DNA from: Dechloromonas sp. H13
GTDB lineage: Bacteria; Pseudomonadota; Gammaproteobacteria; Burkholderiales; Rhodocyclaceae
Direction: 5' to 3'
NCBI RefSeq assembly: GCF_009469615.1
Contig: NZ_SSXX01000002.1
Span: 547,001 to 611,000 of the forward strand
Length of the DNA: 64,000 nt
The notes under the pieces are model-generated. The model saw nothing but the letters and a program-made list of their open reading frames with translations, did no database searches and was not told where the DNA came from. Made by a program: the position numbers and the translations under genes. How positions within the stretch are numbered: position 1 is the first letter of the stretch; each line of letters begins with the position of its first letter. Below are positions 2,159 to 55,909 of the stretch, piece by piece.

Positions 2159-3351
2159 TGGCCGGTTTCGACGACGCCACGCCGGCCTACCGCCCGGAGA
2201 CCCTGGCCGTGCGTGCCGGCCAGGAGCGCAGCCAGTTCGGCGAGCATGCCGAGGCGCTCTACCTGACCTCGAGCTTCGTCTTCAAGAGCGCGGCGTTGGC
2301 CGCCAAGCGCTTTTCCGGCGAGGAGGAGGGCAACGTTTACTCGCGCTTCACCAACCCGACCGTCACCATGTTCGAGGAGCGCCTCGCCGCCCTCGAAGGC
2401 GCCGAGGACTGCGTCGCCACGGCCAGCGGCATGTCGGCGATCATGGCGCTGGTCCTCGCGCACCTCAAGAGCGGCGACCACATCGTCGCCTCCAGCGGTC
2501 TGTTCGGCGCCACCGTGCAGTTGTTCTCGAATATCCTGGCGCGTACCGGCATCGCCACCACCTTCGTGCCGCAGACCGACCCGACGGCCTGGGAAGCGGC
2601 GATCCGCCCGGAAACGAAGCTGTTCTTCCTCGAAACGCCGTCCAACCCGCTGACGGAAATCGCCGATATTTCGGCGTTGACCGCAGCAGCCCATGCCCGG
2701 GGCATTCTGGTCGCCGTCGACAACTGTTTCTGCACGCCCATCCTGCAGCGTCCGCTCGAACTGGGCGCCGACCTCGTCGTCCATTCGGCGACCAAGTTTC
2801 TCGATGGCCAGGGGCGCGTGCTCGGCGGTGCCGTGTGCGGCCCGAAACGGCTGACCGAGGAGGTCTTCAAGTACCTGCGTACCGCGGGCCCGACGCTTTC
2901 CGCCTTCAACGCCTGGGTCCTGCTCAAGGGCCTGGAGACGCTGAAGATCCGCGTCGAGGCGCAGTCGGCCAATGCCCTGCAACTGGCGCGCTGGCTCGAA
3001 GCCCATCCGAAAGTGGCGCGCGTCTTCTACCCCGGCCTGCCGTCGCATCCGCAGTATGAACTGGCGCAGAAGCAGCAGAAGGGCGGCGGCGCCATCGTCT
3101 CGTTCGAAGTGCAGGGCGCCCGCGAGCAGGCCTGGCAGGTCGTCGACCATTGCCGGCTGCTGTCGATCACCGCCAACCTCGGCGACACCAAGACCACCAT
3201 CACCCATCCCGCATCCACCACGCACGGCCGCATCCCCCCGGAAGCCCGGGCGGCGGCCGGCATCGGCGAGGGCCTGCTGCGCATCGCCGTCGGCCTCGAA
3301 GCCGTCGAAGACCTGCAGGCCGACCTCGCGCGCGGCCTCTCCCTCATCTGA
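2158..3351 (+). CDS. metZ: O-succinylhomoserine sulfhydrylase
   Basis: A PLP-dependent Cys/Met metabolism enzyme of 397 residues that makes homocysteine from O-succinylhomoserine and sulfide. The PLP lysine is K213 in [10 protein letters not shown]; the SNPLTE and VDNCFCTPI segments fit the MetZ subgroup. The start overlaps the purF stop by one base. purF-metZ is a common betaproteobacterial pair. Residues 166-177 ([12 protein letters not shown]) are encoded by a copy of the dispersed repeat described elsewhere, yet they still fit the family at this position. A cystathionine gamma-synthase role is possible but less likely from the motif set. Confidence 0.93.
2653..2689 (+). repeat. Dispersed repeat copy 1, inside metZ
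   Basis: The copy starts ACGGAAAT, has the hairpin GCCGA-TATT-TCGGC, and ends with the core GTTGACCGCAGCAG at 2676-2689. It differs from copy 7 (hemH, opposite strand) at only two positions over about 33 bases up to the end of the shared core. It is translated in the metZ frame. Confidence 0.8.
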
Positions 3352-3361
3352 CATTCAGGCG

Positions 3362-3383
3362 GCACCCGGCGCACGCCGGGTGC
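3362..3383 (+). other. Intergenic hairpin between metZ and rhlE
   Basis: Perfect 9-bp stem GCACCCGGC / GCCGGGTGC with a 4-base GCAC loop. No T-run follows on either strand, so a strong intrinsic terminator is unlikely. It may stabilise the metZ transcript end or reduce read-through into the helicase gene. Confidence 0.5.
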
Positions 3384-3400
3384 TCCGCCACGGAGTTCCC

Positions 3401-4681
3401 ATGCATTTTTCCGACCTCGGCCTCAAGGCCGAAATCCAGCGCGCCGTTGCCGAACAGGGCTACGACACGCCGACCCCGATCCAGCAGCAGGCGATTCCCG
3501 CCGTGCTCGCCGGTCACGACCTGATGGCCACGGCGCAGACCGGCACCGGCAAGACCGCCGGCTTCACGCTGCCCATCCTGCACCGCCTGGCCTCTGGTCC
3601 GAACGACCGCCTGACCCGCGTCGCCCGCACGCCGCGCGTGCTGGTGCTGACGCCGACCCGCGAACTGGCGATCCAGGTCGAGGAAAGCGTGCGCACCTAC
3701 GGCAAGCACCTGCCGATCAATTCGCTGGCCGTCTTCGGCGGCGTCGGCATCAATCCGCAGATCGCCAACCTGCGCCGCGGCGTCGATATCCTGGTCGCCA
3801 CGCCTGGCCGCCTGCTCGACCACGTGCAGCAGAAGACGGTCGACCTCGGCAGCATCGAGATCTTCGTCCTCGACGAAGCCGACCGCATGCTCGACATGGG
3901 CTTCATCCGCGACATCCGCAAGATCATCGCGCTGCTGCCGAAGCAACGGCAGAACCTGATGTTCTCGGCCACCTTCTCGCCGGAAATCCGCGAACTGGCG
4001 GCCAGCCTGTTGCACCAGCCGGTATCGGTCGACGTCGCGCCGCGCAACACGGCCGCCGAGACGGTGACGCAGAAGGTCATCGAGACCAACCGCGAGCAGA
4101 AGAAGGACCTGCTCAAGCACCTGTTCGAGTCGCGCGGCCTGCACCAGGTGCTGGTCTTCGCGCGCACCAAGCACGGCGCCGACGCGCTGGCCCGCACGCT
4201 CGACAAGGCCGGCATCAAGTCGGCGGCCATCCACGGCGACAAGTCGCAGGGGGCGCGCACGCGCGCGCTGGGCGACTTCAAGGACGGCAAGCTGGTCGCG
4301 CTGGTCGCCACCGACATCGCCGCGCGCGGCATCGACATCGACGCGCTGCCCTACGTCATCAATTACGAACTGCCCAATGTCGCCGAGGACTACGTGCACC
4401 GCATCGGCCGCACCGGCCGCGCCGGCATGGAGGGCGAGGCCATCTCGCTGGTTTGCCACGACGAGCGGCCGCAGCTGAAGGACATCGAGAAGCTGATCAA
4501 GCGCAGTCTCGAACGCGTGGTGATCGCCGGCTTCGAGCAATCCGCTACCGCCGCACCGCGCCCCGTGCCGCCGCCGCGCGGCCCGCGCAAGCAAACTGCG
4601 TCGGGCAAGCCGCAAAGCCAGAAAATGGGCCAAAAATCCGGTCGACCGCAGCAGCATCACAGCGGCAGCCGGCACCGCTAG
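3401..4681 (+). CDS. rhlE: DEAD-box ATP-dependent RNA helicase, RhlE type
   Basis: A 426-residue RNA helicase. In order: Q motif (TPIQQQAI), motif I AQTGTGKT near residue 45, PTRELA, DEAD at about D158, [11 protein letters not shown], and HRIGRTGR in the second RecA lobe. The tail after residue 385 is basic and rich in Pro, Gln and Gly, as in RhlE proteins that act on ribosome assembly and mRNA decay. The last 20 residues include a translated copy of the dispersed repeat ([13 protein letters not shown]). I chose ATG 3401 because the family begins at this MHFSDLGL-like segment; a longer open frame runs upstream through metZ in another frame. Confidence 0.92.
4621..4654 (+). repeat. Dispersed repeat copy 2, 3' end of rhlE
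   Basis: GAAAATGGGCC, an A-rich spacer, then the core GTCGACCGCAGCAG at 4641-4654. It is translated as part of the helicase tail and lies 27 bp before the stop codon. Confidence 0.75.
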
Positions 4682-4775
4682 AAAACCTGCATCCGGCCAG
4701 GTCTGATCGCTTGGGCGCAGTATTGACCGTCCAACTCGGCTACCATGGATTTCCCTTGCCAGAGGAGGAGCCACC

Positions 4776-5459
4776 ATGCAGCCATCCAGCCTCGCCGGAA
4801 AGCGCATTCTCGTCACGCATGCCGATGCCTTCATGGGCCCGGTCCTATGTGAGGTGTTCAGGGAGCACGGTGCGACCGTCATCGCCAACGTGCTCCGACT
4901 GCTGGCGCCGGACGAACCGGCCCGCGCGCTGGCCGAGGCCGGCCAGGTCGACGTGCTGGTCGCCAACCTGGCGATCGAGGCACCCACGACACCGGTCGCC
5001 GATGCGGATGACCAGGAGTGGGGTTCCGTATTCAATGCGCTTGTGACGCCATTGCCGCGCCTGGTGCGGGCCGTCCTGCCACAGATGATCGGGCGCCGCA
5101 GCGGCAAAATTCTGGTCATGGGCAGCGCTTCGGCCCTGCGCGGCATCAAGCGGGCTTCCACCTACAGCGCCGCGCGGGGCGCCCAGCTGGCCTATGTGCA
5201 ATCGGCTGGCGTCGAACTGGCGCCGTATAACATCCAGATGAATGCCATTGCCCAGAACTTCGTCGACAATCCGACCTATTTCCCGGCCGAGGTGCAAGCC
5301 AATCCTCGCTTTCAGGAGCGACTGAAGCGCGAGGTTCCGCTGGGGCGGCTGGTCGGCGCCCGCGAGGATGCCGAATTCGCGGCGTATCTCTGCGGCGAAT
5401 CAGCCAACTGCTTCGTCGGGCAGGTCTTTCCCGTGTGTGGCGGCTGGGTGGCCCGCTAG
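4776..5459 (+). CDS. Probable halohydrin dehalogenase (SDR fold)
   Basis: A 227-residue protein of short-chain dehydrogenase fold without the NAD(P)-binding glycine motif. Instead it has T14-x4-F19-x-G21 (THADAFMG), and its catalytic set is S117-x12-Y130-x3-R134 with Arg in place of the SDR Lys. These two patterns together are the published signature of halohydrin (haloalcohol) dehalogenases, which close vicinal halohydrins to epoxides and release halide, and run the reverse ring-opening with small anions. Length also fits. AGAGGAGGAG lies six bases before the ATG. It stands alone between rhlE and the convergent recQ, with no obvious pathway partner. Substrate is unknown; an inactive SDR is the alternative. 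Confidence 0.8.
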   Translation: MQPSSLAGKRILVTHADAFMGPVLCEVFREHGATVIANVLRLLAPDEPARALAEAGQVDVLVANLAIEAPTTPVADADDQEWGSVFNALVTPLPRLVRAVLPQMIGRRSGKILVMGSASALRGIKRASTYSAARGAQLAYVQSAGVELAPYNIQMNAIAQNFVDNPTYFPAEVQANPRFQERLKREVPLGRLVGAREDAEFAAYLCGESANCFVGQVFPVCGGWVAR

Positions 5460-5501
5460 CCGCGTAGCGTCGATGATGGATATTCCGCGAGCGGCCCCGT
5501 T

Positions 5502-7322
<1,821 letters not shown>

Positions 7323-7323
7323 T

Positions 7324-8061
7324 TCAGGGCCGATTTTCAGGCAGCACGGCTTCGCGGGCCAGCGTCGCGCCGTCCCAGACCAAGCATTCGCCGCGCTCCT
7401 CGTGCCAGTCGGCGAGTACCCAGCGTTCGACGTGGATGCCGTCGACGATGTGGTCGTGCGTCGCCGGGCGATGCGTGTGGCCGTGGATGAAGGTGGCGTA
7501 GGCGTGGTCGCGCAGGAAATCGTCGGTCGCGGCACCCTGCAGGTCGCTGTACGGCGGGTTCATGGCCTGTTGGCGTGAGCGGCTGCGCCAGCGCATCCAG
7601 CGCGCCACGAGGCGGCGCAGGAAACGCGGGCGGCCGAGCATCCTTGCCTGCCATTCGGGCGTGCGGACGCGGGCGCGGAAGGCCTGGTAGGCGGTGTCGT
7701 CCAGACACAGCGCGTCGCCGTGCGAGAGGACGAAGCTCCATTCTGGAAGCTGCAGGTCGCAGGGGTCGGGTAGCAGGCGGACGCCGCTGGCGGCAGCGAA
7801 CCCTTCGCCGAGCAGGAAATCGCGGTTGCCGTGCTGGAAATAGATCTTCACGCCGGCGTCGCTGGCGGCACGCAGCGCGGCGACGATCTGCGCGTGGTAG
7901 GGGTCGTCGATGTCGTCGTCGCCGATCCAGACCTCGAACAGGTCGCCGAGGATGTAAAGCGCGTCGGCCTGGCGGGCACGGCCGGCCAAAAAGCGGAGGA
8001 ACAAACAAGTCGCCCCGGGTGACCGGGGCGACAGGTGCAGATCGGAGATGAAGAGGATCAA
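7324..8061 (-). CDS. lpxH: UDP-2,3-diacylglucosamine hydrolase
   Basis: A 245-residue metallophosphoesterase of lipid A synthesis that cleaves UDP-2,3-diacylglucosamine to lipid X and UMP at the inner membrane. Metal-binding motifs in order: DLH (7-9), [20 protein letters not shown], and HGHTHRP. The start is a TTG at 8061 that overlaps the ppiB stop (TTGA). It is supported by [10 protein letters not shown] matching the family N-terminus and by the lack of an upstream in-frame ATG. Translation is therefore probably coupled to ppiB. Confidence 0.94.
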
Positions 8062-8549
8062 ACGATCTCGGCCTTCTCGATGATCACGTCTTCCTTCGGG
8101 ACGTCCTGGTGGAAGCCCTTGTTGCCGGTGGCGACGGCGCGGATCTTGTCGACCACGTCCATGCCCTCGACGACCTCGCCGAACACGCAGTAGCCCCAGC
8201 CCTGGCCGGACGGCGCCTTGAAGTCGAGGAAGTCGTTGTCGACGACATTGATGAAGAACTGGGCGGTCGCCGAATGCGGGTCGCCGGTGCGCGCCATGGC
8301 GATGCTGCCGCGCTTGTTCTTGAGGCCGTTGGCGGCTTCGTTCTCGATCGGTGCCCTGGTCGCCTTCTGGTTCATGCCCGGCTCCATGCCGCCGCCCTGG
8401 ATCATGAAGTTCTTGATCACGCGGTGGAAGACGGTGTTGTCGTAGTGGCCGGCCTCGACGTAGGCGACGAAGTTGGCGACCGTCTTCGGGGCTTTCTCGG
8501 CGTTCAGTTCGAGCGCGATGACGCCGTGGTTGGTGGTGAGCTTGATCAT
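8058..8549 (-). CDS. ppiB: Cytoplasmic peptidyl-prolyl isomerase (cyclophilin B)
   Basis: A 163-residue single-domain cyclophilin without signal peptide that catalyses cis-trans isomerisation of X-Pro bonds. Catalytic-site residues are seen in [14 protein letters not shown] and the FFIN and GWGYCVFG segments. It lies 9 bp after the secreted paralogue and overlaps lpxH by four bases. The ppiA-ppiB-lpxH-recQ order suggests one transcript on the minus strand. Confidence 0.95.
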
Positions 8550-8558
8550 TGGGAGTCC

Positions 8559-9131
8559 TTATTTCTCGGAAATGATGGTGACGCTTTTGATGATGACCGG
8601 CGTCGTCGGCACGTTCTCGTACATGCCGGCGTTGCCGGTCGGCACCCTGGCGATCTTGTCGACGACGTCCATGCCCTGGGTGACGCGGCCGAACACGGCA
8701 TAGCCGTAGCCGCGCGGGTCGGCCGCCGTCTTGTGGTTGAGGAAGTCGTTGTCCTTCAGGTTGATGAAGAACTGGACGCGCGCCGAATGCGGATCCTGCG
8801 TGCGCGCCATGGCGATCGTGCCGCGGTCGTTCCTGAGGCCGTTCGCCGCCTCGTTCTGCAGGGCCGGGGTGCGTGTCTTCTTCTCCTCCATCGCCGTGCT
8901 GAACCCGCCGCCCTGGATCATGAAGCCGTCGATGACGCGGTGGAAGACGGTGCCTTCGTAGAAGCCATGCTTGGCGTTGTAGAGGAACATCTCGACTGTC
9001 TTGGGCGCCTTCTCGGCGTTGAGTTCGAGCGTGATCTTGCCCAGCGAGGTGGTCATTTCGACGGTCGGCGCAGCCCAGGCGGAGAGGGCGATGAGCAGGC
9101 CGGCGGCGAGGGTGGAGACTTGCTTCAGCAT
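8559..9131 (-). CDS. ppiA: Periplasmic peptidyl-prolyl isomerase (cyclophilin A)
   Basis: A 190-residue cyclophilin with a cleavable signal peptide (MLKQVSTLAAGLLIALSAWA, cleavage probably after the AWA at about 20), so it folds proteins in the periplasm. The mature part closely resembles its neighbour PpiB, with the same VFHRVIDGFMIQGG active-site segment. The two probably arose by tandem duplication. Confidence 0.93.
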   Translation of the reverse strand: MLKQVSTLAAGLLIALSAWAAPTVEMTTSLGKITLELNAEKAPKTVEMFLYNAKHGFYEGTVFHRVIDGFMIQGGGFSTAMEEKKTRTPALQNEAANGLRNDRGTIAMARTQDPHSARVQFFINLKDNDFLNHKTAADPRGYGYAVFGRVTQGMDVVDKIARVPTGNAGMYENVPTTPVIIKSVTIISEK

Positions 9132-9160
9132 CGGGGAATTCCTTCGCGGTGAATGGTCGA

Positions 9161-9769
<609 letters not shown>

Positions 9770-9774
9770 CGCTA

Positions 9775-9783
9775 TGCTATACT
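9775..9783 (+). promoter_or_regulatory. Extended -10 promoter candidate for cysS
   Basis: TGCTATACT matches the extended -10 form TGnTATAAT with one mismatch. It lies about 93 bp before the cysS ATG and just outside the start of the divergent TPR gene. No convincing -35 box is visible, as is allowed for extended -10 promoters. Confidence 0.4.
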
Positions 9784-9875
9784 CGGCGCCGGTTTACAAT
9801 CGTTCGATTCTACCAAGAACGCCGGCCTTTCCAAAGCTTCCAGACGGCTGACGGCGTTGCCGGAACTCCCTTCCC

Positions 9876-11249
9876 ATGCTCAAAATCCACAACTCCCTGA
9901 AACGGGAAAAGCAGCTCTTCACGCCCATCGAACCGGGCAAGATCCGCATGTACGTGTGCGGGATGACCGTCTATGACTACTGCCATCTTGGCCACGCCCG
10001 CGTCATGGTCGTCTTCGACATGGTCTATCGCTGGCTCAAGGCCAGCGGCTACGACGTGACCTACGTGCGCAACATCACCGACATCGACGACAAGATCATC
10101 AAGCGCGCCAGCGAGAACGGCGAGACGATTCAGCAGCTGACCGACCGCTTCATCGCCTGCATGCACGAGGACGCCGACGCGCTGGGCGTGCTGCGCCCGG
10201 ACCACGAGCCGCGCGCCACCGAGTACGTGCCGGAAATGCTCGACCTGATCGGCAAGCTGGAGGGCAACGGCCTCGCCTACCGGGCGGCGGACGGCGACGT
10301 CAATTACGCGGTGCGCAAGTTTCCCGGCTACGGCAAGTTGTCCGGCAAGTCGCTCGACGACCTGCGCGCCGGCGAGCGGGTCGAGGTCGATTCGGCCAAG
10401 CAGGACCCGCTCGACTTCGTGCTGTGGAAGCACGCCAAGGCGGGCGAGCCGGCCTGGCAATCGCCGTGGGGTGACGGCCGGCCGGGCTGGCACATCGAGT
10501 GTTCGGCGATGAGCTCGAAGCTGCTCGGCCAGCATTTCGACATCCACGGCGGCGGCCAGGATCTGCAGTTCCCGCACCACGAGAACGAGATCGCCCAGTC
10601 GGAAGGCGCCAACTGCTGCACCTTCGTCAATTACTGGATGCACAACGGCTTCGTCCGCGTCGACAACGAGAAGATGTCGAAGTCGCTCGGCAACTTCTTC
10701 ACCATCCGCGAGGTGTTGCAACGCTACGATGCCGAGGTGGTGCGCTTCTTCATCCTGCGCGCCCACTACCGCAGCGCGCTGAACTACTCCGACGCGCATC
10801 TCGACGACGCCAAGCGCAGTCTGGACAGCCTCTACTTCGCCCTGCGCGACGTGCCGCCGGTGGCCGTGGAGATCGACTGGACGCAGGGCTTCGCCGCCCG
10901 CTTCGCGGCCGCGCTGAACGAGGATTTCGACTCGCACGGGGCGATCGCCGTGCTGTTCGAGCTGGCCGGCGAGGTCAATCGCCAGCGCAGCGGCGAGCTC
11001 GCCGGTCTGCTGCAGGCGCTGGCCGGCGTCATCGGTCTGCTTGAACGCGCGCCGACGGCCTATCTGCGCGGCGGCGGCGCGGCGGCTGGCGGGCTGGACG
11101 AGGCGGCCATCGAGCGCATGATCGGCGACCGCGCGGCGGCCAAGAAGGCGCGCAATTTCGCCGAAGCCGATCGCCTGCGCGACGAACTGAAGGCGGCCGG
11201 CATCGCGCTCGACGACAGTCCGCAGGGAACGACCTGGCGGCGGCTCTGA
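9876..11249 (+). CDS. cysS: Cysteinyl-tRNA synthetase
   Basis: A 457-residue class I aminoacyl-tRNA synthetase that charges tRNA-Cys. The HIGH-type motif is HLGH in [11 protein letters not shown], with the zinc-binding Cys in [11 protein letters not shown], and KMSKS is intact in EKMSKSLGN. The DALR-type C-terminal helical part ends [11 protein letters not shown], typical of the family. Length agrees with E. coli CysS (461). A divergent promoter region separates it from the TPR gene and it ends at a strong bidirectional terminator. Confidence 0.97.
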
Positions 11250-11252
11250 AAT

Positions 11253-11284
11253 GAAAAACGGCCTGTGAAAACAGGCCGTTTTTT
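11253..11284. terminator. Bidirectional terminator between cysS and the binding-protein gene
   Basis: Stem ACGGCCTGT / ACAGGCCGT with a GAAA tetraloop, flanked by A-run and T-run so it can act for both converging genes. It lies four bases after the cysS stop. Confidence 0.9.
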
Positions 11285-11301
11285 CTGGTCGACCGCAGCC
11301 G
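11267..11301 (+). repeat. Dispersed repeat copy 4, overlapping the cysS terminator
   Basis: GAAAACAGGCCGTTTTTTCTG followed by the core GTCGACCGCAGCCG at 11288-11301. The A-rich and T-rich parts coincide with the terminator arm and T-run, and the core ends three bases before the stop of the convergent binding-protein gene. Confidence 0.75.
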
Positions 11302-11304
11302 GGC

Positions 11305-12444: not shown

Positions 12445-12471
12445 TGTTCGTCCCCCCTGTTGAGTGCGCAG

Positions 12472-12508: not shown

Positions 12509-12534
12509 GGTGGCCGGCACGGGCGCCGGCCACC
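12509..12534 (-). other. Strong hairpin between dnaJ and the binding-protein gene
   Basis: Perfect 10-bp stem GGTGGCCGGC / GCCGGCCACC with loop ACGGGC, directly abutting dispersed repeat copy 5. No T-run follows, so termination would have to be factor-assisted; it could instead protect the dnaJ mRNA 3' end. Confidence 0.5.
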
Positions 12535-12571
12535 GGTTGCGGTCGACACCCGAAAAGTGCCGAAAATGCAG
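12534..12571 (-). repeat. Dispersed repeat copy 5, downstream of dnaJ
   Basis: Minus strand: GCATTTTCGGCACTTTTCGGGT, core GTCGACCGCAACCG. It is fully intergenic, starting about 8 bp after the dnaJ stop. Confidence 0.8.
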
Positions 12572-12578
12572 GGCGGGG

Positions 12579-15727: not shown

Positions 15728-15794
15728 GTTCGTTTTCCTAGATGTGAATGACTGATGTTCGTGAATTGGGGGCGGTGCCCCCGATTTCAAGCGT

Positions 15795-15832
15795 CTGCCG
15801 CGGTCGACCGCGGAAATCGCCGGTTTTTCATT
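15795..15832 (-). repeat. Dispersed repeat copy 6, grpE-dnaK junction
   Basis: Minus strand: GAAAAACCGGCGATTTCCGCG, core GTCGACCGCGGCAG. It is the only good copy with G instead of A after GACCGC, giving a longer palindrome CCGCGGTCGACCGCGG. It covers the grpE stop codon. Confidence 0.75.
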
Positions 15833-16388
15833 TGCCCTTGGCGACCATGACCAGCGCCGGGCGCAGGACGCGCTCGGCGATCAGATAACCCTTCTGGAGG
15901 ACGGTGACGACGGTGTTGGCGTCCTGCTCGGAATCGACCATGCCGATTGCCTGGTGCTTGTGGGGGTCGAACTTCTCGCCGGCCGGATTGACCTCGACCA
16001 GGGCGTTCTTCTCGAAAGCCGAAACCAGTTGCTTGAGGGTCAGCTCGACGCCCGACTTGAAGCTGTCGACGGTCTGTTCCGGCACGGCCAGCGCGGCTTC
16101 CAGGCTGTCCTTGACGGCCAGCAGTTCGCCGGCGAATTTCTCGACGGCAAACTTGTGTGCCTTGGCGATGTCTTCCTGGGCGCGGCGGCGGATGTTCTCG
16201 CCCTCGGCCTTGGCGCGCAGCCAGGCGTCGTAGTGCTCGGCGGCCTTCAGTTCGAGGGCGCGAAACTGTTCCTCGACGCTCGGCAGCGTATCGGTGTGCT
16301 CGTGCTCGTGCGCGGCGGGCGCGGGGCTCGCCTCGGTGGCGGGTTCGTTGCCCAGCAAGGGTTCCTGGGGGGTTTCCGGGGTGGACAT
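15828..16388 (-). CDS. grpE: Nucleotide exchange factor GrpE
   Basis: A 186-residue DnaK nucleotide-exchange factor. The charged, disordered N-terminus (about 1-40, with EHEHT) is followed by the long coiled-coil helix and the C-terminal beta domain ending [13 protein letters not shown], as in the family. First gene of the heat-shock unit: a sigma-32-type promoter lies 31 bp upstream. Downstream it is separated from dnaK by 100 bp holding repeat copy 6 and a GGGGGC/GCCCCC hairpin. Confidence 0.95.
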
Positions 16389-18432: not shown

Positions 18433-19536
18433 TCAAGTCCTGGCGCCGAGCGCCCTGGCCCGCTGGGCGGTTGCGGTCGACGCCGAAATATCGGCAATTT
18501 CCGTCGTGCTCCAGCCGCCGAGATGGCGTTCGACGAGCGACGCCAGCGCCGCGATCCAGCCGGGGTCTTCGTTGAGGGCGGGAATGTAGTGGTATTCCTT
18601 GCCGCCGCTCGACAGGAAGATGGTCTTGCCTTCCATGGCGATCTCTTCCAGGGTTTCCAGACAGTCGGCGACGAAGCCGGGGCAGATGACGTCGACGCGG
18701 CGGGTGCCGGCCTTGCCGAGCGCTTCGAGGGTCGGCGCGGTGTACGGCTGCAGCCATTCAGCCTTGCCGAAGCGCGACTGGAAGCAGATTTTCACCTGCT
18801 CGGCCGGGAGATTCAGGTTTTCGGCGAGCAGGCGGCCGGTCTTCATGCACTCGCAGTGGTAGGGGTCGCCGAGATCGAGGCTGCGCCGGGGCAGGCCGTG
18901 GAAGCTGATGAGCAACTGGTCACCGGCTTCCAGCCGCCCGTGCTTCATCCAGTGGCTGCGCACAGTCTGCGCGAGCGCAGCGATGTAGGCGGGGTCGTCG
19001 TGGAAATTGCGCACGAAGCGCATCTCCGGCTGGTTGCGCCGGGCCAGTAGCCAGTGGCAGGCCGCGTCGACCACGGTGGCGGTGGTGCTCGCCGAATATT
19101 GCGGATACATCGGCAGCAGCAGGATGCGCGTCGCGCCGTCCGCCTTGAGCCTGTCCAGAACGTCGGCAATCGACGGCGCGCCGTAGCGCATGGCCCATAC
19201 GACCGTCACGCGGTGCCCGCGCTCGCCCAGGTACCCGGCCAGCAGCTTGGTCTGGCGCTCGGTGTGGACCTTCAGCGGCGAGCCTTCGGGCAGCCAGACC
19301 GCGGCATATTTCTCGGCCGACTTCTTCGGGCGGGTGTTGAGGATGATGCCGTTCAGGATCGGCCACCACAGCGCGCGCGGAATCTCGACGACGCGCCGGT
19401 CGCCGAGGAACTGGCGCAGGTAGCGCTTGAGCGCCGGCGCGGTCGGCGCCTCGGGTGTGCCCAGATTGACGAGGACGACGGCGGTGCCGGGGACGCTGCC
19501 GTGCTGGTAGGGTGGTTCCGGCTGGAAACGTGGCAT
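18433..19536 (-). CDS. hemH: Ferrochelatase
   Basis: A 367-residue enzyme that inserts Fe2+ into protoporphyrin IX, the last heme step. Seen: [11 protein letters not shown] at the N-terminus, [26 protein letters not shown] with the catalytic His, and [15 protein letters not shown]. The final 25 residues after HLGGW extend past the usual end and are encoded largely by dispersed repeat copy 7 ([13 protein letters not shown]). The start is 3 bp from the hrcA stop, so the two are coupled. Confidence 0.95.
18468..18504 (-). repeat. Dispersed repeat copy 7, hemH 3' end
   Basis: Minus strand: ACGGAAATTGCCGATATTTC, GGC, core GTCGACCGCAACCG. Nearly identical to copy 1 in metZ and read in the same codon phase (TEIADIS in both proteins). 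Confidence 0.85.
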
Positions 19537-20630: not shown

Positions 20631-21542
20631 ATGAAATCCAGCTTCGGCTCCTCTCGCTCGCCCAAGACCATCGCGCTGGTCGGCAAGTACCATAGCCTCG
20701 AAATTGCCGAATCCCTGCGCGGGCTGGCGGAGTACCTCCACGAGCGCGGCGTTTCGGTATTCATCGAACGCGAGACGGCTGAGCATGTCGGGCGCCAGGT
20801 CGATCTGGCGCGCTGGGTGACCTGCGGCTTCAACGACATCGGCGCCCATGCCGACCTCGCCATCGTCATCGGCGGCGATGGCACCATGCTCAACGCGGCG
20901 CGTCGCCTGTCGCGCTATCGCGTGCCGCTGGTCGGCGTCAACCAGGGGCGGCTCGGCTTCATGACCGACATCGCGCGCTGCGACATGCTGACCTGCATGG
21001 ACGATCTGCTCGACGGGCGCTTCACCGCCGAGAACCGCATGCTGCTTGACGCCGAGGTGGTGCGCGACGGCAGGGAGATCGCCGCCAACCAGGCGCTCAA
21101 CGACGTCGTCGTGGACAAGGGGGCGATCGGCCGGATGATCGAGTTCGAGCTCTTCATCGACGGCGAGTTCATCTACAACTTGCGCTCCGACGGCCTGATC
21201 GTGTCGACGCCGACCGGATCGACCGCGTATTCGCTCTCGTCGGGCGGGCCGATCCTGCACCCGACCCTGACCGGCATCGCGCTGGTCCCGCTGTGCCCGC
21301 ATGCGCTGACCAACCGGCCGATCATCGTCAATGACCGCGCCGACATCGAACTGCGCGTCACCCATGCCGAAGACCCGCGCGTGCACTTCGACGGCCAGGT
21401 CACCCTCGACCTGAACCCCGGCGACAGCGTTCGCCTGCGCCGTTCGGAATACACCATCTGCTTCCTGCACCCGCCGGGCTACAGCTATTTCGCGATGCTG
21501 CGCCAGAAACTGCGCTGGAGCGAGGGACCCAAGGGCGTCTGA
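20631..21542 (+). CDS. nadK: NAD kinase
   Basis: A 303-residue kinase making NADP+ from NAD+ and ATP or polyphosphate. The hallmark GGDGTML appears in [14 protein letters not shown], followed by NE/D-type and [15 protein letters not shown] motifs. I chose ATG 20631 for its fit to the family; an open extension upstream overlaps hrcA. It is divergent from hrcA and its stop overlaps the recN ATG (TGATG). Confidence 0.95.
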
Positions 21543-23215
21543 TGCTGCGTCACCTTGCGATTCGCGATTTCGTCATCGTCGACCGGCTGGAACTCGAGTT
21601 CGCGGCGGGTTTCGGCGCGCTGACCGGGGAAACCGGCGCCGGCAAATCGATCCTCATCGACGCCCTGGCCCTGGCCCTCGGCGAGCGTGCCGATGCCGGC
21701 GTCGTGCGCGCCGGCTGCGACAAGGCGGAAGTGGCGGCGACCTTCGACATCACCGGTCTGCCGGCGGCCGGCGAGTGGCTTGCCGCCAACGATCTCGACG
21801 CCGAAGACGAATTGATCCTGCGTCGCGTGCTCGATGCCGGTGGCCGTTCGCGCGGCTACATCAACGGTTCGCCGGCGACCGCCCAGCAGTTGCGCGAAGT
21901 CGGCGAGTTCCTGGTCGACATCCATGGGCAGCATGCCCACCAGTCACTGCTGCGCGCCGATGCGCAGCGCGCGCTGCTCGACAGCCATGCCGGGCTGACC
22001 GGGGCCGTGCAGCAGGTCGCGGCTGCCTACCGGGCCTGGCGCGAGGCGACGCAGCTTCTGCAGTCGGCGGCGAGTGGCGCCGACGCGCTGGCGCGCGAGC
22101 GCGAGCAGCTCGAATGGCAGGTGCGCGAGCTCGACAGCCTGGCTTTCAGCGCCGGGGAATGGGCCGAACTGGAGGTCGAGCACCGCCGTCTCGGGCATGC
22201 CGCCAGCCTGATCGAAGGCGCGCAGTTCGCGCTCGATGCGCTGGCCGACGGCGAAGCGGCGTGCACCGGCCAGGTCGACCGCGTGGCGGCGCGGCTGGAC
22301 GGGCTGGCCAGCTACGATCCCGCGTTGCAGGAGGTCGCCGGCCTGCTGCAGTCGGCGCAGGCCGAGCTGGCGGAGGCGGTATCCACCTTGCGCCGCTATG
22401 CCGATCGCGTCGATCTCGATCCGGCGCGCCTGGCGGAAGTCGAGCGGCGCATGGAAGCGGTCCTCGCCTGCGCCCGCAAGTACCGCGTGTCGCCGGTCGA
22501 GCTGCCGGCCTTGCTGGCCGATGGGCAGGCGCGCCTGGCGACGCTGAATGCTTCGACCGACCTGGCGGCACTTGCCGCCCGCGTTGATGCGGCCCACGCC
22601 GACTACCTGAAGCAGGCCCGGGTCCTGTCCGCCGGACGGCAGCGCGTTGCCGGCGAAATGGGTGCCGCGGTCAGCGCGCTGATGCAGCAGCTGGCGCTGG
22701 CTTCCGGGCGCTTCGAAGTGGCCTTGCCGCCGCTCGCCGAAGGCGCCGCCTACGGCCTGGAGCAGGTCGAATTCCGGGTCGGCGGTCTCGCCGGCCAGGA
22801 GGCTAGGCCGCTGGCCAGGGTGGCGTCGGGCGGCGAGTTGTCGCGCATCAGCCTGGCCATCCAGGTCCTGACCTCGCGGTCGGCCAGCGTGCCGACGCTG
22901 ATCTTCGACGAGGTCGACGTCGGCATCGGCGGCGGCGTCGCCGAGATCGTCGGCCGTTTGCTGCGCGAACTCGGCGGCGAACGTCAGGTGTTGTGCGTGA
23001 CCCACCTGCCGCAGGTCGCGGCGCGCGCCGAATGGCAATGGCAGGTCAGCAAGGAAACCCGCGACGGTGCGACCCTGAGTTCCATCCGGCCGCTCGGCGA
23101 AGAACAGCGCGTCCGCGAAATCGCCCGCATGCTGGGCGGCGTCGAGGTCACCGACATCACCCTGGCGCACGCCGGCGAGCTGCTGCGGTCGACCCCGGTA
23201 ACGGGGCAAAAATGA
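21542..23215 (+). CDS. recN: DNA repair protein RecN
   Basis: A 557-residue SMC-like ATPase acting in double-strand break repair. Walker A GETGAGKS near residue 30, long central coiled coils (about 150-370), ABC signature VASGGELSRISLA, and Walker B LIFDEVDVGIGGG. One base overlap with nadK suggests coupling, a common nadK-recN pair. The last codons (LRSTPVTGQK) are encoded by repeat copy 8. The stop abuts the stop of the convergent gene in the palindrome TGATCA. Confidence 0.96.
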   Translation: MLRHLAIRDFVIVDRLELEFAAGFGALTGETGAGKSILIDALALALGERADAGVVRAGCDKAEVAATFDITGLPAAGEWLAANDLDAEDELILRRVLDAGGRSRGYINGSPATAQQLREVGEFLVDIHGQHAHQSLLRADAQRALLDSHAGLTGAVQQVAAAYRAWREATQLLQSAASGADALAREREQLEWQVRELDSLAFSAGEWAELEVEHRRLGHAASLIEGAQFALDALADGEAACTGQVDRVAARLDGLASYDPALQEVAGLLQSAQAELAEAVSTLRRYADRVDLDPARLAEVERRMEAVLACARKYRVSPVELPALLADGQARLATLNASTDLAALAARVDAAHADYLKQARVLSAGRQRVAGEMGAAVSALMQQLALASGRFEVALPPLAEGAAYGLEQVEFRVGGLAGQEARPLARVASGGELSRISLAIQVLTSRSASVPTLIFDEVDVGIGGGVAEIVGRLLRELGGERQVLCVTHLPQVAARAEWQWQVSKETRDGATLSSIRPLGEEQRVREIARMLGGVEVTDITLAHAGELLRSTPVTGQK

Positions 23216-27027: not shown

Positions 27028-30234
<3,207 letters not shown>

Positions 30235-31244: not shown

Positions 31245-31607
31245 TCAGCCCTGGAAGCTGCGCTTGGTCTTGCGCGGTGCGCTGGCCGGGCGCCCGGTTT
31301 TTGGGCTTTTCAGGGCGTTGACCGCAGCAGCCTTGGCTGGCGCGGGACGATAGACCACCAGCAGCTTGCCGATGTGCTGAACGGCCGCGGCGCCAAGCGT
31401 GGCGCAGATCTGTTCGAGGTAGGCGAGGCGGTTTTCCCGGCTATCGCCATAGACGCGAATCTTGATCAGTTCGTGCGCCGACAGATTCACCTCGATCTCC
31501 TTGAGGACCGCCTCGGTGAGTCCGTTCTCGGCGATCGAGACGACGGGGTTGAGGTTGTGGGCACGGGCACGCAGTTCGCGGCGCTCGACAGACGATAATT
31601 GCAGCAT
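31245..31607 (-). CDS. yhbY: YhbY family RNA-binding protein
   Basis: A 120-residue protein with one CRM (CRS1-YhbY) domain over about residues 1-95, including ANGL-like AENGLTEAVLKEI and LIKIRVYG. E. coli YhbY associates with pre-50S ribosomes. The C-terminal tail is basic and Pro/Ala-rich and is partly encoded by repeat copy 9 read backwards. I chose the ATG at 31607 (MLQLSSVERREL) with AAAGG upstream. Divergent from rlmE, another ribosome maturation gene. Confidence 0.9.
   Translation of the reverse strand: MLQLSSVERRELRARAHNLNPVVSIAENGLTEAVLKEIEVNLSAHELIKIRVYGDSRENRLAYLEQICATLGAAAVQHIGKLLVVYRPAPAKAAAVNALKSPKTGRPASAPRKTKRSFQG
31294..31330 (+). repeat. Dispersed repeat copy 9, yhbY 3' part
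   Basis: CCGGTTTTTGGGCTTTTCAGGGC then core GTTGACCGCAGCAG at 31317-31330. It is antisense to the yhbY tail and runs toward the yhbY start. Confidence 0.75.
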
Positions 31608-34247: not shown

Positions 34248-35087
34248 ATGAGCATTCTTCATTGCGGCCGCTACAGGCTGCCACTCGATCGCCCGCTTGT
34301 CATGGGCATCGTCAATCTCACGCCGGATTCATTGTCGGGCGACGGAACGGGATCGGATGTCGGTCGCGCCATCGAACATGCCCGTCACCAGCTCGATGCC
34401 GGCGCCGACATTCTCGATATCGGTGCCGAATCGTCACGCCCCGGGGCGATTCCGACGCCGGAGGCTGAAGAATTGCGTCGGCTGATCCCGGTGCTCCGCG
34501 AAATTGCCGCCTGGAATGTGCCGGTTTCCGTCGATACCTACAAACCGGCTGTCATGCGTGCCGCGCTCGATGCGGGGGCGGCCATGATCAACGATATCAC
34601 CGCGCTTGGCCATCCTGGCGCCCTCGAAGCGGTTGCTGCAGGTGATTGTGCTGTCTGCCTGATGCACATGTCCGGCGAGCCGGGAACGATGCAGCAGGCG
34701 CCGCACTACGACGACGTGGTGGGCGAGGTGCGGGAATTTCTCGCCACGCGAGTGGCGCGCTGCCAAGCCGCGGGGATCGCCGATGATCGCCTGGTGCTCG
34801 ACCCGGGGTTCGGCTTCGGCAAAACGCTGGCGCACAATTTGGCCCTGTTTCGGGCGTTGACCGCAACCGGCAGCCACCAGCTGCCGTTGCTCGTCGGCGT
34901 CTCGCGGAAATCCATGCTGGGAGCCATTACCGGCCGGCCGGTCGAGCAGCGTCTGGCGGCCAGCGTTTCCGCCGCGCTGCTGGCGGTGCAGAAAGGTGCG
35001 AAAATATTGCGCGTGCATGACGTCGCGGAAACAAGGGATGCGCTGGCGGTGCTGGCGGCCATGGAACAGGGAGTGGAACAGCAATGA
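34248..35087 (+). CDS. folP: Dihydropteroate synthase
   Basis: A 279-residue TIM-barrel enzyme of folate synthesis and the sulfonamide target. Seen: [16 protein letters not shown] (the more usual form is TPDSFSDGG), [20 protein letters not shown], and [10 protein letters not shown]. The ATG at 34248 fits the family but has no recognisable ribosome site and directly follows the ftsH terminator. Residues around 197-207 are encoded by repeat copy 10. Overlaps glmM by four bases (ATGA); ftsH-folP-glmM is a conserved order. Confidence 0.94.
34834..34869 (+). repeat. Dispersed repeat copy 10, inside folP
   Basis: ACAATTTGGCCCTGTTTCGGGC then core GTTGACCGCAACCG at 34856-34869, with a GCCC/GGGC hairpin. 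Translated as [12 protein letters not shown], which still fits the family. Confidence 0.75.
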
Positions 35088-45825: not shown

Positions 45826-45835
45826 GGAGAGATCA

Positions 45836-46324: not shown

Positions 46325-46336
46325 CAGGTACGAGCG

Positions 46337-46933: not shown

Positions 46934-46946
46934 ACCCGGGGCGCCA

Positions 46947-47258
46947 ATGCTTACTCTTTCCCTCTCGCATTTCCTCATTCTGGGCGCGATCCTGTTCGCG
47001 ATCAGCGTGGTCGGCATTTTCCTCAACCGGAAGAATCTTCTGGTGTTGCTGATGGCCATCGAACTGATGCTGCTTGCGGTCAACATGAATTTCGTGGCGT
47101 TTTCGCACTATCTTCAGGACCTTTCCGGACAGATCTTCGTTTTCTTCATCCTGACCGTTGCCGCCGCCGAATCGGCAATCGGCCTGGCCATACTGATCGT
47201 GCTGTTCCGCAACCTGAAGAGCATCCACGTGGATGACCTGGGTAGCCTGAAGGGTTAA
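46947..47258 (+). CDS. nuoK: NADH-quinone oxidoreductase subunit K
   Basis: A 103-residue MrpC-like membrane subunit with three helices and the two conserved membrane glutamates, in [13 protein letters not shown] and [13 protein letters not shown]. Two bases separate its stop from the nuoL ATG. Confidence 0.97.
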
Positions 47259-47260
47259 AC

Positions 47261-49300: not shown

Positions 49301-49332
49301 CGTGAATAGTTCGCAGACAAGCAAGGAATAAC

Positions 49333-50817: not shown

Positions 50818-50829
50818 ACGGTAGCCGAC

Positions 50830-52308: not shown

Positions 52309-52332
52309 TCGTTACCGGCAACACACAGGAAT

Positions 52333-52355
52333 GCGCCCCGGTCTTCGGGGCGTTT
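52333..52355 (+). terminator. Hairpin after the nuo operon
   Basis: Stem CGCCCCG / CGGGGCG with a GTCTT loop, followed by only TTTCC. A weak or partial terminator; the nudix gene starts 20 bp later and may be expressed by read-through. Confidence 0.5.
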
Positions 52356-52374
52356 CCATTTCTGGAGTTCGAAA

Positions 52375-52917
52375 ATGAGCCATGACAGCCACCTGATCGA
52401 ATCGGAAATCGCCAGCGAAACGGTCTTCAAGGGAAAGCTGCTGGAGGTGCGCAAGGACAGGGTCCTGCTGCCGGATGGCAAGGAGTCGCTCAGGGAATAC
52501 ATCGTTCACCCGGGCGCCGTGGTGGTTCTGGCCTTTCTCGACAACGGCAACCTGCTATTCGAGCGGCAGTTCCGTTATCCGCTGCGGCGGGTATTTCTCG
52601 AACTGCCGGCAGGCAAGATCGATCCTGGCGAGGCGATCCTCGACACGGCGCGCCGCGAATTGCTCGAGGAAACGGGCTATGTGGCCAGCGACTGGGAATA
52701 CCTGGGTGTGATGCACCCGTGCATCGGCTATTCCGACGAGCGAATCGAGATCTTCGCGGCGCGCGGGCTGCATTTCTCCGGGGAAAAGCAACTCGATCAC
52801 AACGAGTTCCTGGAGGTGGTCGAAGTGGCCCCGGAGGCCGCGAGAGCGGCCGTATGGAACGGCCAGATCACCGATGCCAAGACGGTAACCGCGCTATTCT
52901 GGCTGGATCGTCCCTGA
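52375..52917 (+). CDS. nudF: Nudix hydrolase, ADP-ribose pyrophosphatase type
   Basis: A 180-residue nudix enzyme. The nudix box G-x5-E-x7-REUxEExGU is intact in GKIDPGEAILDTARRELLEETGY (split as GKIDPGEAI and RRELLEETGY), near residues 78-100. The N-terminal strand domain and the position of the box fit ADP-ribose diphosphatases (ADP-ribose to AMP and ribose-5-phosphate). Its position after nuo suggests NAD(H) housekeeping, but that is inference. Confidence 0.85.
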   Translation: MSHDSHLIESEIASETVFKGKLLEVRKDRVLLPDGKESLREYIVHPGAVVVLAFLDNGNLLFERQFRYPLRRVFLELPAGKIDPGEAILDTARRELLEETGYVASDWEYLGVMHPCIGYSDERIEIFAARGLHFSGEKQLDHNEFLEVVEVAPEAARAAVWNGQITDAKTVTALFWLDRP

Positions 52918-52927
52918 CCGGATGACC

Positions 52928-52963
52928 TGAAAATCGCCCATTTTGGGCGGTCGACCGCAGCAG
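52928..52963 (+). repeat. Dispersed repeat copy 11, between nudF and nrdJ
   Basis: TGAAAATCGCCCATTTTGGGCG then core GTCGACCGCAGCAG at 52950-52963. The spacer has a perfect GCCCA-TTT-TGGGC hairpin. Fully intergenic, just after the nudF stop and beside the nrdJ terminator. The clearest copy of the family. Confidence 0.85.
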
Positions 52964-52966
52964 GCG

Positions 52967-52994
52967 AAAAAAAGCCCCGGGAAAACCCGGGACT
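52967..52994 (-). terminator. Terminator of nrdJ
   Basis: On the minus strand AGTCCCGGG-TTTT-CCCGGGGCT followed by a run of seven T. It lies about 25 bp past the nrdJ stop. Confidence 0.85.
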
Positions 52995-53017
52995 TCGTTT
53001 TTCGGGGTCGCCGCAGG

Positions 53018-55909
53018 TCAGCCGCAGGTTCCGACCGCGCCGCAGGCGGTGCAGAAATCGCAGCCGTCCTTGCGGATCATGGTGTGGTTGCCGCATTCGC
53101 TGCACAGTTTGCCCTGCGTCGGGTGCACCGTGTTGCTGGCGTCTTCCGGCGCCTTCAGGATGCCCATCTGCTGCAGCGGGAAACCGTATTCGTCGAGGAT
53201 GCCCAGCATCGCATAGCGATGGATGATCAGGTTGGCGATGTAGGCGACCGTGGACGGGTAGGTCTGCTGTTTGCGCGAACCGGGCACGAAGGCCATGAAA
53301 TCGCCCAACGGTTCCGGGTAGTCGAGCAGCTTGCGCAGCTTCATGCCGATCCACGCCGGGTCGAGCACTCGCATGTCGAGCGAGAGCAGCTTGCACAGGC
53401 CGTCGAGCGAGCGCGGATAGTTGCCCGAGAGCCACATTGAGTAGGGACGGGTGACGCCGTCGGGTAGCGTGATTTCCTTGAGGCCGAGGACGAAATCCTC
53501 GCCGGTGGACGGGTTGCTGACATCGACCGTCCAGGACAGCGTGCCATCGGTGCCGGTCTTCGGCTCCTTGGCGCTGAACAGCGCATCTTTCACCGGTGTC
53601 GGGCCTTCATGGCGGAGGGCGCCGAGCTGTTCGACGCGCCAGCGGATGATCTGCGCCATCGCGGAGACCACCGACGGCACGCGCTTGCGCTCGCCATGCG
53701 GCGGCATCGGCATCTCGAAGGATTCGCCCGGGGTCTTGGCCAGCGCGTCGAGCTTCATCTCGAGCCAGCCGTGGTCGTTGGCACGCATGTCCATCGACAG
53801 GGTCTTGGCGACGGCGCCCAGGCCGCGCGGTTCGGCCGGGCCGTTGGCCCAGACTTCGAAGGGCCAGGCGCGGCCTTCCGGTTCGACGTGGCCGACGAAC
53901 AGGGCGAACTTGCCGATCGGCGAATCCAGCATGTAGGTCCAGCACAGGTTGCCCTCCGGCAGGCTGGGGCGGTTCGGCCAGCGCAGGCTGGAGAGGACGG
54001 GGGCCGGCAGATCCTTGATCGACAGGCGGCGGTTGGCGTCGGAAACGAAATCCTGCGGCGCCTTGGCGTCGACCGCAACCGCCTCGACCTTGGCCGGCTC
54101 GACGGAGAGCACTGAGCCGAGAACGCTGTTCGGGCGGTAGGTCGCCAGGCCCTTGAGCCCCGATTTCCAGGCGCTCATGTAGAGATCCTGGAAGTCTTCG
54201 TAGGGGTAATCGGCCGGCACGTTGACCGTCTTGGAGATCGAGGTGTCGATATGCGGAGCGACGGCGGCCACCATGTCTTTGTGCGCCTGGGCCGAGATTT
54301 CCAGCGCCGTGACGAAATAATCCGGCAGCTTGTTCACGTCACCGCCGAGGTGGCGGTACAGGCGCCAGGCGTAGTCCTCGACTGAGTATTCCTTGAGCGT
54401 GCCGTCCGGCATGCGCTTCTTGCGGCTGTAGGTCCACGAGAAGGGCGGCTCGATGCCGTTCGAGGCGTTGTCGGCGAAGGCCAGCGAAATCGTGCCGGTC
54501 GGCGCGATCGACAGCAGGTGCGAGTTGCGCAGGCCGTGCTTGCGGATTTCGGCCTTGACCTCGTTGGGCAGGCGCGAGGCGAAATTGCCGCCCGAGAGGT
54601 AGAGCTCGGCGTTGAACAGCGGGAAGGCGCCGCGCTCCTTCGCCAATTCGACCGAGTACAGGTAGGCGGTATCGCGCATGTGCTCGGTGATGCGGGTGGC
54701 CATGGCGCGGGCTTCCGGCTTGTCGTACTTGAGGCGCAGCATGGCCAGCGCATCGCCGAGGCCGGTGAAGCCGAGGCCGACACGACGCTTGTTGGCGGCT
54801 TCCTGCTGCTGGCGCTCGAGCGGCCAGTGGGTGGCATCGAGGACGTTGTCGAGCATGCGGGTTGACACGCGGACCACTTCGGCGAAGCCATCGAAATCGA
54901 ACTCGGCCTTGTCGGAGAAGGGGTGGCGGACGTAAAGGGTCAGGTTGATCGAACCCAGGCAGCAGCAGCCGTAAGGCGGCAGCGGCTGTTCGGCGCAGGG
55001 GTTCGTCGCCTCGATCACTTCGCAGTAATTGAGGTTGTTGTCCTTGTTCATGCGATCGAGGAACAGGATGCCTGGTTCGGCATGGTCGTAGGTCGACTTC
55101 ATGACCTGGTCCCACAGGTCGCGGGCCTGGACCTTGCGGTAGACCCACAGGCCGTCCTCGCGCTGGTAGGCGCCGCCCGAACGCATCTCGGTGTTGGGCT
55201 CGGCGCGGTGGGTCAGTTCGACCTCGCCGTCGCTGTCGACCGCTTCCATGAAGGCATCGGTGACGCCGATCGAGATGTTGAAGTTGGTCAGGTCGCCCTT
55301 GTCCTTGGCGTGGATGAAGACCTCGATGTCCGGGTGGTCGCAGCGCAGGACGCCCATCTGGGCACCGCGGCGGGCGCCAGCGGATTCGACGGTCTCGCAG
55401 GAACGGTCGAAGACGCGCATGTAGGAGACCGGGCCGGAGGCGCGCGACTGGGTGCCCTTGACGTGGGCGCCCTGCGGCCGAATGCTGGAAAAGTCGTAAC
55501 CGACGCCGCCGCCGCGGCGCATGGTTTCGGCGGCCTGTGCCAGCGCTGTGTAGATGCCGGGACGGCCGTCGGTGGTTTCGACGATGGAGTCGCCGACCGG
55601 CTGCACGAAGCAGTTGATCAGCGTCGCCTGCAGATCGGTGCCAGCGGCGGAATTGATGCGGCCGGCCGGAATGAAGCCGTTTTCCTGGGCCCACTGGAAG
55701 CGGGCCTCCCAATGGGCGCGATCCTTTTCCTGCTCGACCTGGGCCAACGCGTAGGCGACGCGGCGACGTACGTCGTGGACGTTGGTTTCCTTGCCCTTGG
55801 CGTATTTTTCGATCAGCACCTCGCCGGAGATTTCCTGCTCGGGAAGCGGCGGAATTTGCGGCGGTGCGGGGATGTCGGTCAGCGACAGTTGTTCGGAAAC
55901 TGGACTCAT
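53018..55909 (-). CDS. nrdJ: Adenosylcobalamin-dependent ribonucleotide reductase (class II)
   Basis: A 963-residue class II enzyme reducing ribonucleoside diphosphates to deoxy forms with a B12 radical, independent of oxygen. Seen: [24 protein letters not shown], the active-site loop [14 protein letters not shown], and a C-terminal zinc-ribbon-like Cys set (CSECG...CDFCTACG) at the end. No radical-generating NrdB partner is near, as expected. The start at 55909 has GGAG upstream. Two NrdR-type boxes overlap its promoter. Confidence 0.95.
54047..54081 (+). repeat. Possible dispersed repeat copy inside nrdJ
   Basis: GAAATCCTGCGGCGCCTTGGC then GTCGACCGCAACCG. The core is perfect but the upstream half is GC-rich rather than T-rich, so this may be coding coincidence (AVAVDAKA on the minus strand). 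Confidence 0.4.

Follow-up and report, generated by a model that had tools for sequence, protein, structure and literature searches.

The uptake signal sequence (USS) of the Pasteurellaceae has an inner core, GCGG, with two A/T segments on its 3′ side, about 12 positions apart (PMC1626085; PMC7811141; PMC12616744; all papers given by PMC number are cited here from excerpts), and its receptor is so far presented as a prediction. The DNA uptake sequence (DUS) of the Neisseriaceae is without flanking A/T motifs according to the excerpted text of PMC1626085, and that of PMC12616744 (2025) names these two families as the sole ones with such discrimination of self DNA. We describe here a dispersed repeat of Dechloromonas sp. 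H13, noticed in a stretch of 64,000 nucleotides (the window, C15:547001–611000) of its 3.66 Mb genome (62 contigs; G000 in what follows). We propose that this repeat works like a USS, as a self-DNA tag for natural transformation, while belonging to neither the USS nor the DUS family; judging from sequence patterns, we give this proposal a probability of a little under four in five. It is drawn from the abundance of the repeat, its logo of core and A/T tracts, its placement in coding and intergenic DNA, its strand balance, its origin by substitution, its depletion near integrases, its dialects and its patchy presence. Of the three ideas that a sequence-only reading of the window had offered, the uptake or recombination signal is the one that the anatomy, distribution, dialects, genus restriction and island depletion uphold, whereas a repetitive extragenic palindromic (REP) element mobilized by a REP-associated tyrosine transposase (RAYT) is not upheld.

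The core GTYGACCGCRRCMG occurs exactly 12 times in the window: the eleven copies already listed by the sequence-only reading are all present (its starts are element starts for forward-strand copies and core starts for reverse-strand copies), and a twelfth lies at 54068. Two mismatches allowed, the window holds 45 matches against 16.7 expected. Genome-wide there are 419 exact cores (213 forward and 206 reverse), compared with 11 (2 and 9, respectively) for the pattern read backwards; the repeat is therefore real and genome-wide, and the possibility, named beforehand, that core counts would be no higher than base composition predicts is contradicted by these numbers. In 464 kb (the window plus C6:1–400000), the most over-represented 10-mer was GTCGACCGCA, found 98 times against 5.75 expected from a third-order Markov model. 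A position weight matrix (PWM) trained solely on the other contig (59 sites of C6:1–400000) gave, at 9 bits or more, 17 matches in the window; the window reversed gave one, and 40 simulated windows averaged 0.28 (maximum 2). In C6 itself the matrix gave 156, against 2 when reversed. The exact core recurs about once per 8.7 kb, and sites with A/T tracts (tracted sites) about once per 5 kb in C6. The only Rfam match in the window is a tRNA.

The logo of 71 sites from the 464 kb, each with the exact 14-base core, is discontinuous, with conservation ending at about −22 and +15. The core, GTYGACCGCARCMG, is followed by a preferred C at +15 and combines an inner core GTYGACCG (CGGTCRAC when read from the opposite strand) with a 3′ arm that is dialect-specific, ARCMG in this genome. 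Upstream lie a core-proximal A/T tract at −9 to −5 (58–76% A/T) and a distal one at about −20 to −16, which reaches 97–100% A/T at −19, −18 and −17 in DNA of 63–66% GC; the spacer between them is GC-rich. With 10–11 bp from one tract to the other, their spacing would correspond to one helical turn. The window has 12 instances of GACCGC with both tracts and C6 has 55, and neither has the mirror-image arrangement. An anchor-free scan that started from the tracts alone returned GACCGC as the top hexamer in G000, G030, G008 and G015, and GACCGT in G019, with a mirror control of one in G019 and zero elsewhere; GACCGC was not top in a 20-kb sample of G020 holding one site, and was not returned in G016, G035, G022 and G027. 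The sequence-only reading had described a GC hairpin in each copy. Perfect stems of 4 bp or more in the −22 to −1 half are enriched, with 9 among the 39 coding copies and 12 among the remaining 32 (compared with 11% and 8%, respectively, in shuffles), yet 50 of the 71 copies have none, and the constant feature is the pair of A/T tracts, which stemless coding copies keep. The hairpin is an optional embellishment, commoner between genes, and we rejected it as the defining half of the site in favour of the tracts.

Coding fractions were taken from our own hexamer gene finder, which is not an annotation (coding fraction 0.90 in C6). By this measure 39 of the 71 sites are wholly coding, 28 intergenic and 4 partial, compared with 17548, 1741 and 711 of 20000 random 36-mers (87.7, 8.7 and 3.6%, respectively). 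Intergenic DNA is enriched in sites (39% versus 8.7%), though coding copies outnumber intergenic ones. The earlier statement that most copies sit at gene ends holds for many copies in the window; it does not hold for the coding copies just counted, and those at 2654 and 34834 lie inside genes. Among published uptake sites, 65% in Haemophilus influenzae and 35% in Neisseria gonorrhoeae are in open reading frames, with an excess in non-coding DNA (PMC1939737). The coding sites of C6 run on the gene strand in 25 cases and antisense in 21, and of its intergenic sites 21 lie between tandem genes, 5 between divergent genes and 4 between convergent ones. Over 76 genomes of the genus the two strands total 7932 and 7922 sites, and no replichore-type orientation bias is seen in C6, where 45 of 82 sites agree with the local GC skew (contig order is not known).

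Two sites were compared with relatives. The one at 2654–2691 (forward strand; PWM 39.4 bits) lies in a gene for a pyridoxal phosphate enzyme of Cys/Met metabolism (2158–3351, forward strand; Pfam Cys_Met_Meta_PP) that we take to be metZ. Across 50 of the 76 genus genomes (the 30 best-scoring plus 20 of the rest), none has a gap in its 38 columns, so this site arose by substitution. Of the 28 genomes that have 50 tracted copies or more, 20 show GTYGACCG at this position, as does one of the 22 below that number (Fisher p 1.4e-6, the species not being independent). The other site (4619–4656, forward strand; 25.3 bits) is near the 3′ end of a DEAD-box helicase gene (3401–4681, forward strand; Pfam DEAD); of 30 genomes, 20 are ungapped there, 7 are gapped, among them G020, which still has a site, and 3 lack the sequence. 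We read the gaps other than that of G020 as a variable C-terminal tail. Redfield et al. likewise used a substitution argument for the Haemophilus USS (PMC1626085).

Searched for the tracts plus the inner core, 40 of the 76 genus genomes hold at least 50 sites (maximum 753), 6 hold 20–49 and 30 hold fewer than 20, compared with at most 5 in the reversed control; the split into site-rich and site-poor genomes at 50 tracted copies was set after these counts had been seen. Beyond the genus, the own-dialect core GTYGACCGCARCMG stays at background: none of the 393 genomes searched in the rest of the order, which include seven from further genera of the family, has more than 5 copies. The tracted inner core is also at background in 368 genomes from elsewhere in the class, none of them from another genus of the family; it does not exceed 5 there, and its reversed control reaches 10 in some. 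The seven same-family genomes gave no strict and one loose tracted site in 400 kb (inner cores other than GTYGACCG were sought there only by the top-hexamer scan), compared with 33 strict and 82 loose in 400 kb of C6. The neighbourhoods of 80 relatives, among the matches listed, of the gene at 9876–11249, which we take to be cysS, gave no strict and four loose sites in 1.43 Mb. As far as searched, the site family is confined to one genus. Within the genus, a tree of the single gene metZ (the same 50 genomes, site columns removed) requires 11 changes between the rich and poor states, compared with 16.7 after shuffling (one of 500 shuffles was as low). At least six of the 11 are forced by well supported branches, while many forks of this tree are weak. 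Site richness is phylogenetically clustered, yet it has been gained or lost several times.

The relatives also differ in dialect, as judged roughly from 18–27 sites per relative in a search that presupposed the inner core GTYGACCG. The arm is CA(A/G)C(C/A)G in G000 (95 sites), TAGNAA-like in G464, TAGCA in G457, CAG-A in G439 and TGAA-like in G342; the preference is slight in G456, G030 and G019. One locus in G447, G448, G450 and G451 reads GTTGACCGTAGCAAA with both tracts. Exact-core counts can mislead here, since G342 has 8 exact cores and 377 tracted sites. A k-mer scan of 80 kb each of the site-poor G016, G035, G022 and G027 revealed no other motif with these tracts (G028, a single 3.5-kb contig, was left out), and GAAGCGGTCG occurs nine times in 80 kb of G035 without tracts. 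The same scan brought up other repeats: a CRISPR-like array in G022 (C1:60001–80000, at about 7860–10310) with about 35 repeats containing TTTCAATCCACGCCTCCCGTTGC spaced by 71–74 bp, and the words GTTTCACGTG and GTTCCACGTG, each recurring 5–7 times in G035 C1:1–80000, which resemble parS sites.

The sites thin out near integrases. Nine 20-kb stretches around integrase genes hold 11 sites, compared with 35.6 expected from C6, a roughly threefold depletion (Poisson p 1.5e-6); individual stretches carry 0–3 sites, against 2–7 in C6 (Mann–Whitney p 9.5e-5). These stretches cover 11 of the 14 PF00589 matches of G000, and island borders were not determined; the matches left out are two high-scoring ones, presumably XerC/XerD-like, and one below the cut-off. 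A 33.7 kb element of G002 (570 tracted sites genome-wide) has no site, where about 4.6 would be expected from the genome mean. DUS are likewise sparse in neisserial islands (PMC7371117). As regards its location, the G002 element (C33, about 109612–143338) is of low GC content, carries a PF00589 integrase at C33:120159 and lies between two parts of comEC. A similar split of the Competence domain (1–29 and 26–267), with its parts 32.5 kb apart, is seen in G440; together the splits suggest an integrative element that targets this DNA-uptake channel gene.

With the USS the repeat shares the discontinuous plan of a short GC core with two A/T-rich segments on one side (3′ of the core when read in the USS orientation, in which the own dialect is CKGYYGCGGTCRAC followed by the two tracts), although the segment centres are 10–11 nt apart here and 12 in the Hin-type USS (PMC1626085). 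It also shares the hundreds of copies on both strands, the occurrence in genes with intergenic enrichment, the origin by substitution and dialects around a conserved inner core, and the GCGGTC of the own dialect is common to the Apl-type USS 10-mer ACAAGCGGTC. By its letters, however, it is not a USS, because GCGG is lost in some dialects and because the lineage differs. In place of AAGTGCGGT or ACAAGCGGT the repeat has CGGTCRAC as its inner core, and its arm varies; with the USS core ANNNGCGGT it shares GCGGTC alone, and not in every dialect, GCGG disappearing where the arm starts with T (G464, G457 and G342). The first tract lies farther from the core than in the USS, and the density is lower. 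The nearest named cysS relatives among the matches listed are Ralstonia (74%), Zoogloea (73%) and Accumulibacter (72%), the best match listed being a metagenome-assembled genome (76%). With the DUS the repeat has in common hundreds of copies or more, dialects that follow phylogeny, site-free genomes within the family and fewer sites in genomic islands (PMC3630211; PMC7371117). Its sequence is unrelated to the DUS, with no DUS 10-mer and a core other than CTG, and its A/T tracts set it apart as well; as for ComP, the DUS receptor, the ComP_DUS-family pilin does not track site abundance here. In the open-access PMC literature we found no paper that links uptake sequences with the Rhodocyclales (the order assigned by the sequence-only reading) or the Rhodocyclaceae, or that prints the core; among the titles listed in broader searches, none dealt with such sequences in these bacteria.

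These comparisons lead us to think, with somewhat less confidence than in the tag function itself, that the repeat probably belongs to a third self-DNA recognition system, evolved independently in a betaproteobacterial genus and converged on the Pasteurellaceae plan (CGGTC plus two phased A/T tracts on the same side). In such a system, a surface receptor associated with the type IV pilus would bind double-stranded DNA bearing GTYGACCG and the dialect arm. The two A/T tracts, on the same face of the helix, could form a narrow, bendable stretch that eases kinking of the fragment through the outer-membrane pore; ComEC would then move one strand to the cytoplasm, where recombination would replace the resident allele. 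Alleles that mutate nearer to the tag would be taken up more often, and tags would thus build up along the chromosome, in genes and between them, by biased gene conversion (molecular drive). If this is true, the plan would be dictated by the physics of drawing DNA through the outer membrane, and the existence of a third system would show that evolution has produced uptake sequences repeatedly. Within the one genus, switches of dialect and recurrent losses of sites would also let the birth, drift and death of such sequences be traced species by species: 76 genomes with several dialects and both site-rich and site-poor species amount to a natural experiment. Two questions could be put to it, namely whether biased uptake suffices to spread the tags or selection for mate recognition is at work, and what protein recognizes signals of the A/T-tract type.

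Several points weigh against an uptake tag. The site density is below the USS/DUS level of roughly one per kb (PMC1626085). The 79 sites used for spacing in C6 are slightly more even than random (coefficient of variation 0.79 versus 0.98; 1.9% of 5000 random sets are as low), which is atypical of the uptake sequences in the published excerpt (PMC1939737), and the GCGG shared with the USS is not invariant across dialects. The competence genes point both ways. The full-length comEC of G000 (820-aa open frame) agrees with uptake, and 56 of 60 genus genomes have the gene; since 10 of 14 control genomes have it too, its presence proves little. A comEC frame of at least 700 aa is present in 25 of the 31 site-rich genomes compared and in 19 of the 29 site-poor ones (p = 0.15), so that loss of sites through loss of comEC, which we considered, is a trend only. 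Among the six site-rich genomes without such a frame are G002 and G008; for some of these six, the frame may simply be cut off by a contig end. Also on the favourable side, a minor-pilin operon at C6:264465–273185 encodes a ComP_DUS-family pilin (PF16732, 47–48 bits with a cut-off of 27.3) and a GspH-family pilin, which we take to be FimT-like, next to genes that appear from their sequences to be PilV/W/X/Y1-like. The ComP_DUS family, however, is no marker, since 33 of 37 genomes have it, among them members of other families of the order. Close relatives of the ComP-family pilin of G000 occur in site-poor G443 (70% identity) and G009 (64%), and the site-rich near relatives G453 and G020 give just weak matches; the adjacent GspH-family pilin likewise does not track site abundance. 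A receptor was therefore not found by co-variation, neither pilin following the sites. It may be added that the closed, site-poor genome G035 matches comEC as two overlapping pieces (C1:1959178–1959913), and that shortened comEC frames are seen in site-poor G452, G433, G029 and G018 (contig ends not checked).

Other explanations of the repeat can be set against the same observations. A chromosome-organizing or segregation protein, whether nucleoid-associated or akin to MatP, SlmA or the FtsK-orienting polar sequences (KOPS), might bind the sites in the cell, their regular spacing being the function. The hundreds of sites, the slightly even spacing with 2–7 sites per 20 kb of C6 and the bendable A/T-tract binding site would all suit such a protein, yet we consider it improbable. 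Orientation bias was not found in C6, and dialects argue against an organizer, as does the depletion near integrases, which an organizer would lead one to expect only in part. Copy number moreover ranges from 0 to 753 between species of the same genus, and the one-gene tree implies several gains or losses, which is unlike an essential organizer. Still less probable is a Chi-like recombination signal (RecBCD/AddAB), or a restriction–modification or mismatch-repair mark, enriched by selection. The abundant short core, its presence in and between genes and the GTCGAC palindrome in part of the copies would fit a signal of this type, but the palindrome is broken in the variant GTTGACCG. Signals of the Chi type show strand bias and are not known to have flanking A/T tracts, and the equal strands found here disfavour one.

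The two remaining explanations both lean on the hairpin and are, in our view, hardly credible. A palindromic element of the REP or bacterial interspersed mosaic element (BIME) type, spread by a RAYT (Y1) transposase, would share with the repeat its hundreds of dispersed copies and its partly hairpin-forming nature (21 of 71 with a stem of at least 4 bp), and the genome has three Y1_Tnp matches. However, over half of the copies are genic (39 of 71), which does not agree with an extragenic element; the metZ site shows no insertion in 50 of 50 genomes; the logo is discontinuous and not palindromic as a rule; and the three Y1_Tnp loci of G000 have no exact core closer than 1.5 kb. On these grounds the REP/RAYT identity suggested by the sequence-only reading was rejected. 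The RAYT-like Y1_Tnp matches, which include G000:C36:155702–156412 and C6:113237–113488, stand apart from the repeat. As for intrinsic transcription terminators at gene ends, some intergenic copies do form a stem near Ts, and the 82 sites of C6 include two inverted pairs 31–32 bp apart and one overlapping pair. Convergent gaps, on the other hand, are not favoured (4 of 30 sites, compared with 11% of intergenic length), the 4-bp stem is lacking from the 50 copies noted above, and the genic copies count against terminators as they do against REP elements. Terminator use of some site pairs may be secondary, as has been reported for USS and DUS (PMC12616744).

We finally list the remaining sites of the window with their PWM scores. 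On the reverse strand, one site (7302–7339; 39.9 bits) is at the junction of the predicted genes 5502–7322 and 7324–7989, and another (12532–12569; 36.0 bits) is intergenic. A third (15793–15830; 31.3 bits) is at the 3′ end of the predicted gene 15828–16388 and is overlapped by a weak inverted partial match on the forward strand (15781–15818). The site at 18466–18503 (43.1 bits) is at the 3′ end of a ferrochelatase gene (18433–19536, reverse strand; Pfam Ferrochelatase), and that at 23178–23215 (36.4 bits) is antisense at the 3′ end of a RecN/SMC-type gene (21542–23215, forward strand; Pfam SMC_N). On the forward strand, an intergenic site (11266–11303; 35.2 bits) lies just past the presumed cysS gene, and the highest score of the window, 44.2 bits, belongs to the intergenic site at 52928–52965. 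The site at 31295–31332 (40.7 bits) is near the 3′ end of a gene with a Pfam CRS1_YhbY match (31245–31607, reverse strand), and that at 34834–34871 (39.3 bits) is in a folP-type gene for a pterin-binding enzyme (34302–35087, forward strand; Pfam Pterin_bind). The list of copies in the sequence-only reading was incomplete: it overlooked a variant site with both tracts at 28439–28476 (forward strand; 18.6 bits) in the gene 27028–30234 (forward strand), presumably carB. Its statement that the nuo operon is free of copies also needs amending, with a weaker two-tract site at 47069–47106 (reverse strand; 14.6 bits), antisense in a nuoK-type gene (Pfam Oxidored_q2). The twelfth exact core (54046–54083, forward strand; 28.4 bits), in a ribonucleotide reductase gene (Pfam Ribonuc_red_lgC), has the distal A/T tract only and is possibly a chance or decayed site, and a weak core match without proper tracts at 61489–61526 (forward strand; 19.2 bits) is probably due to chance. 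Apart from the sites, the window contains at 8199–9053 two diverged stretches, 513–516 bp apart and 72–79% identical, in adjacent predicted genes (163 and 190 aa), which are probably a tandem gene duplicate.

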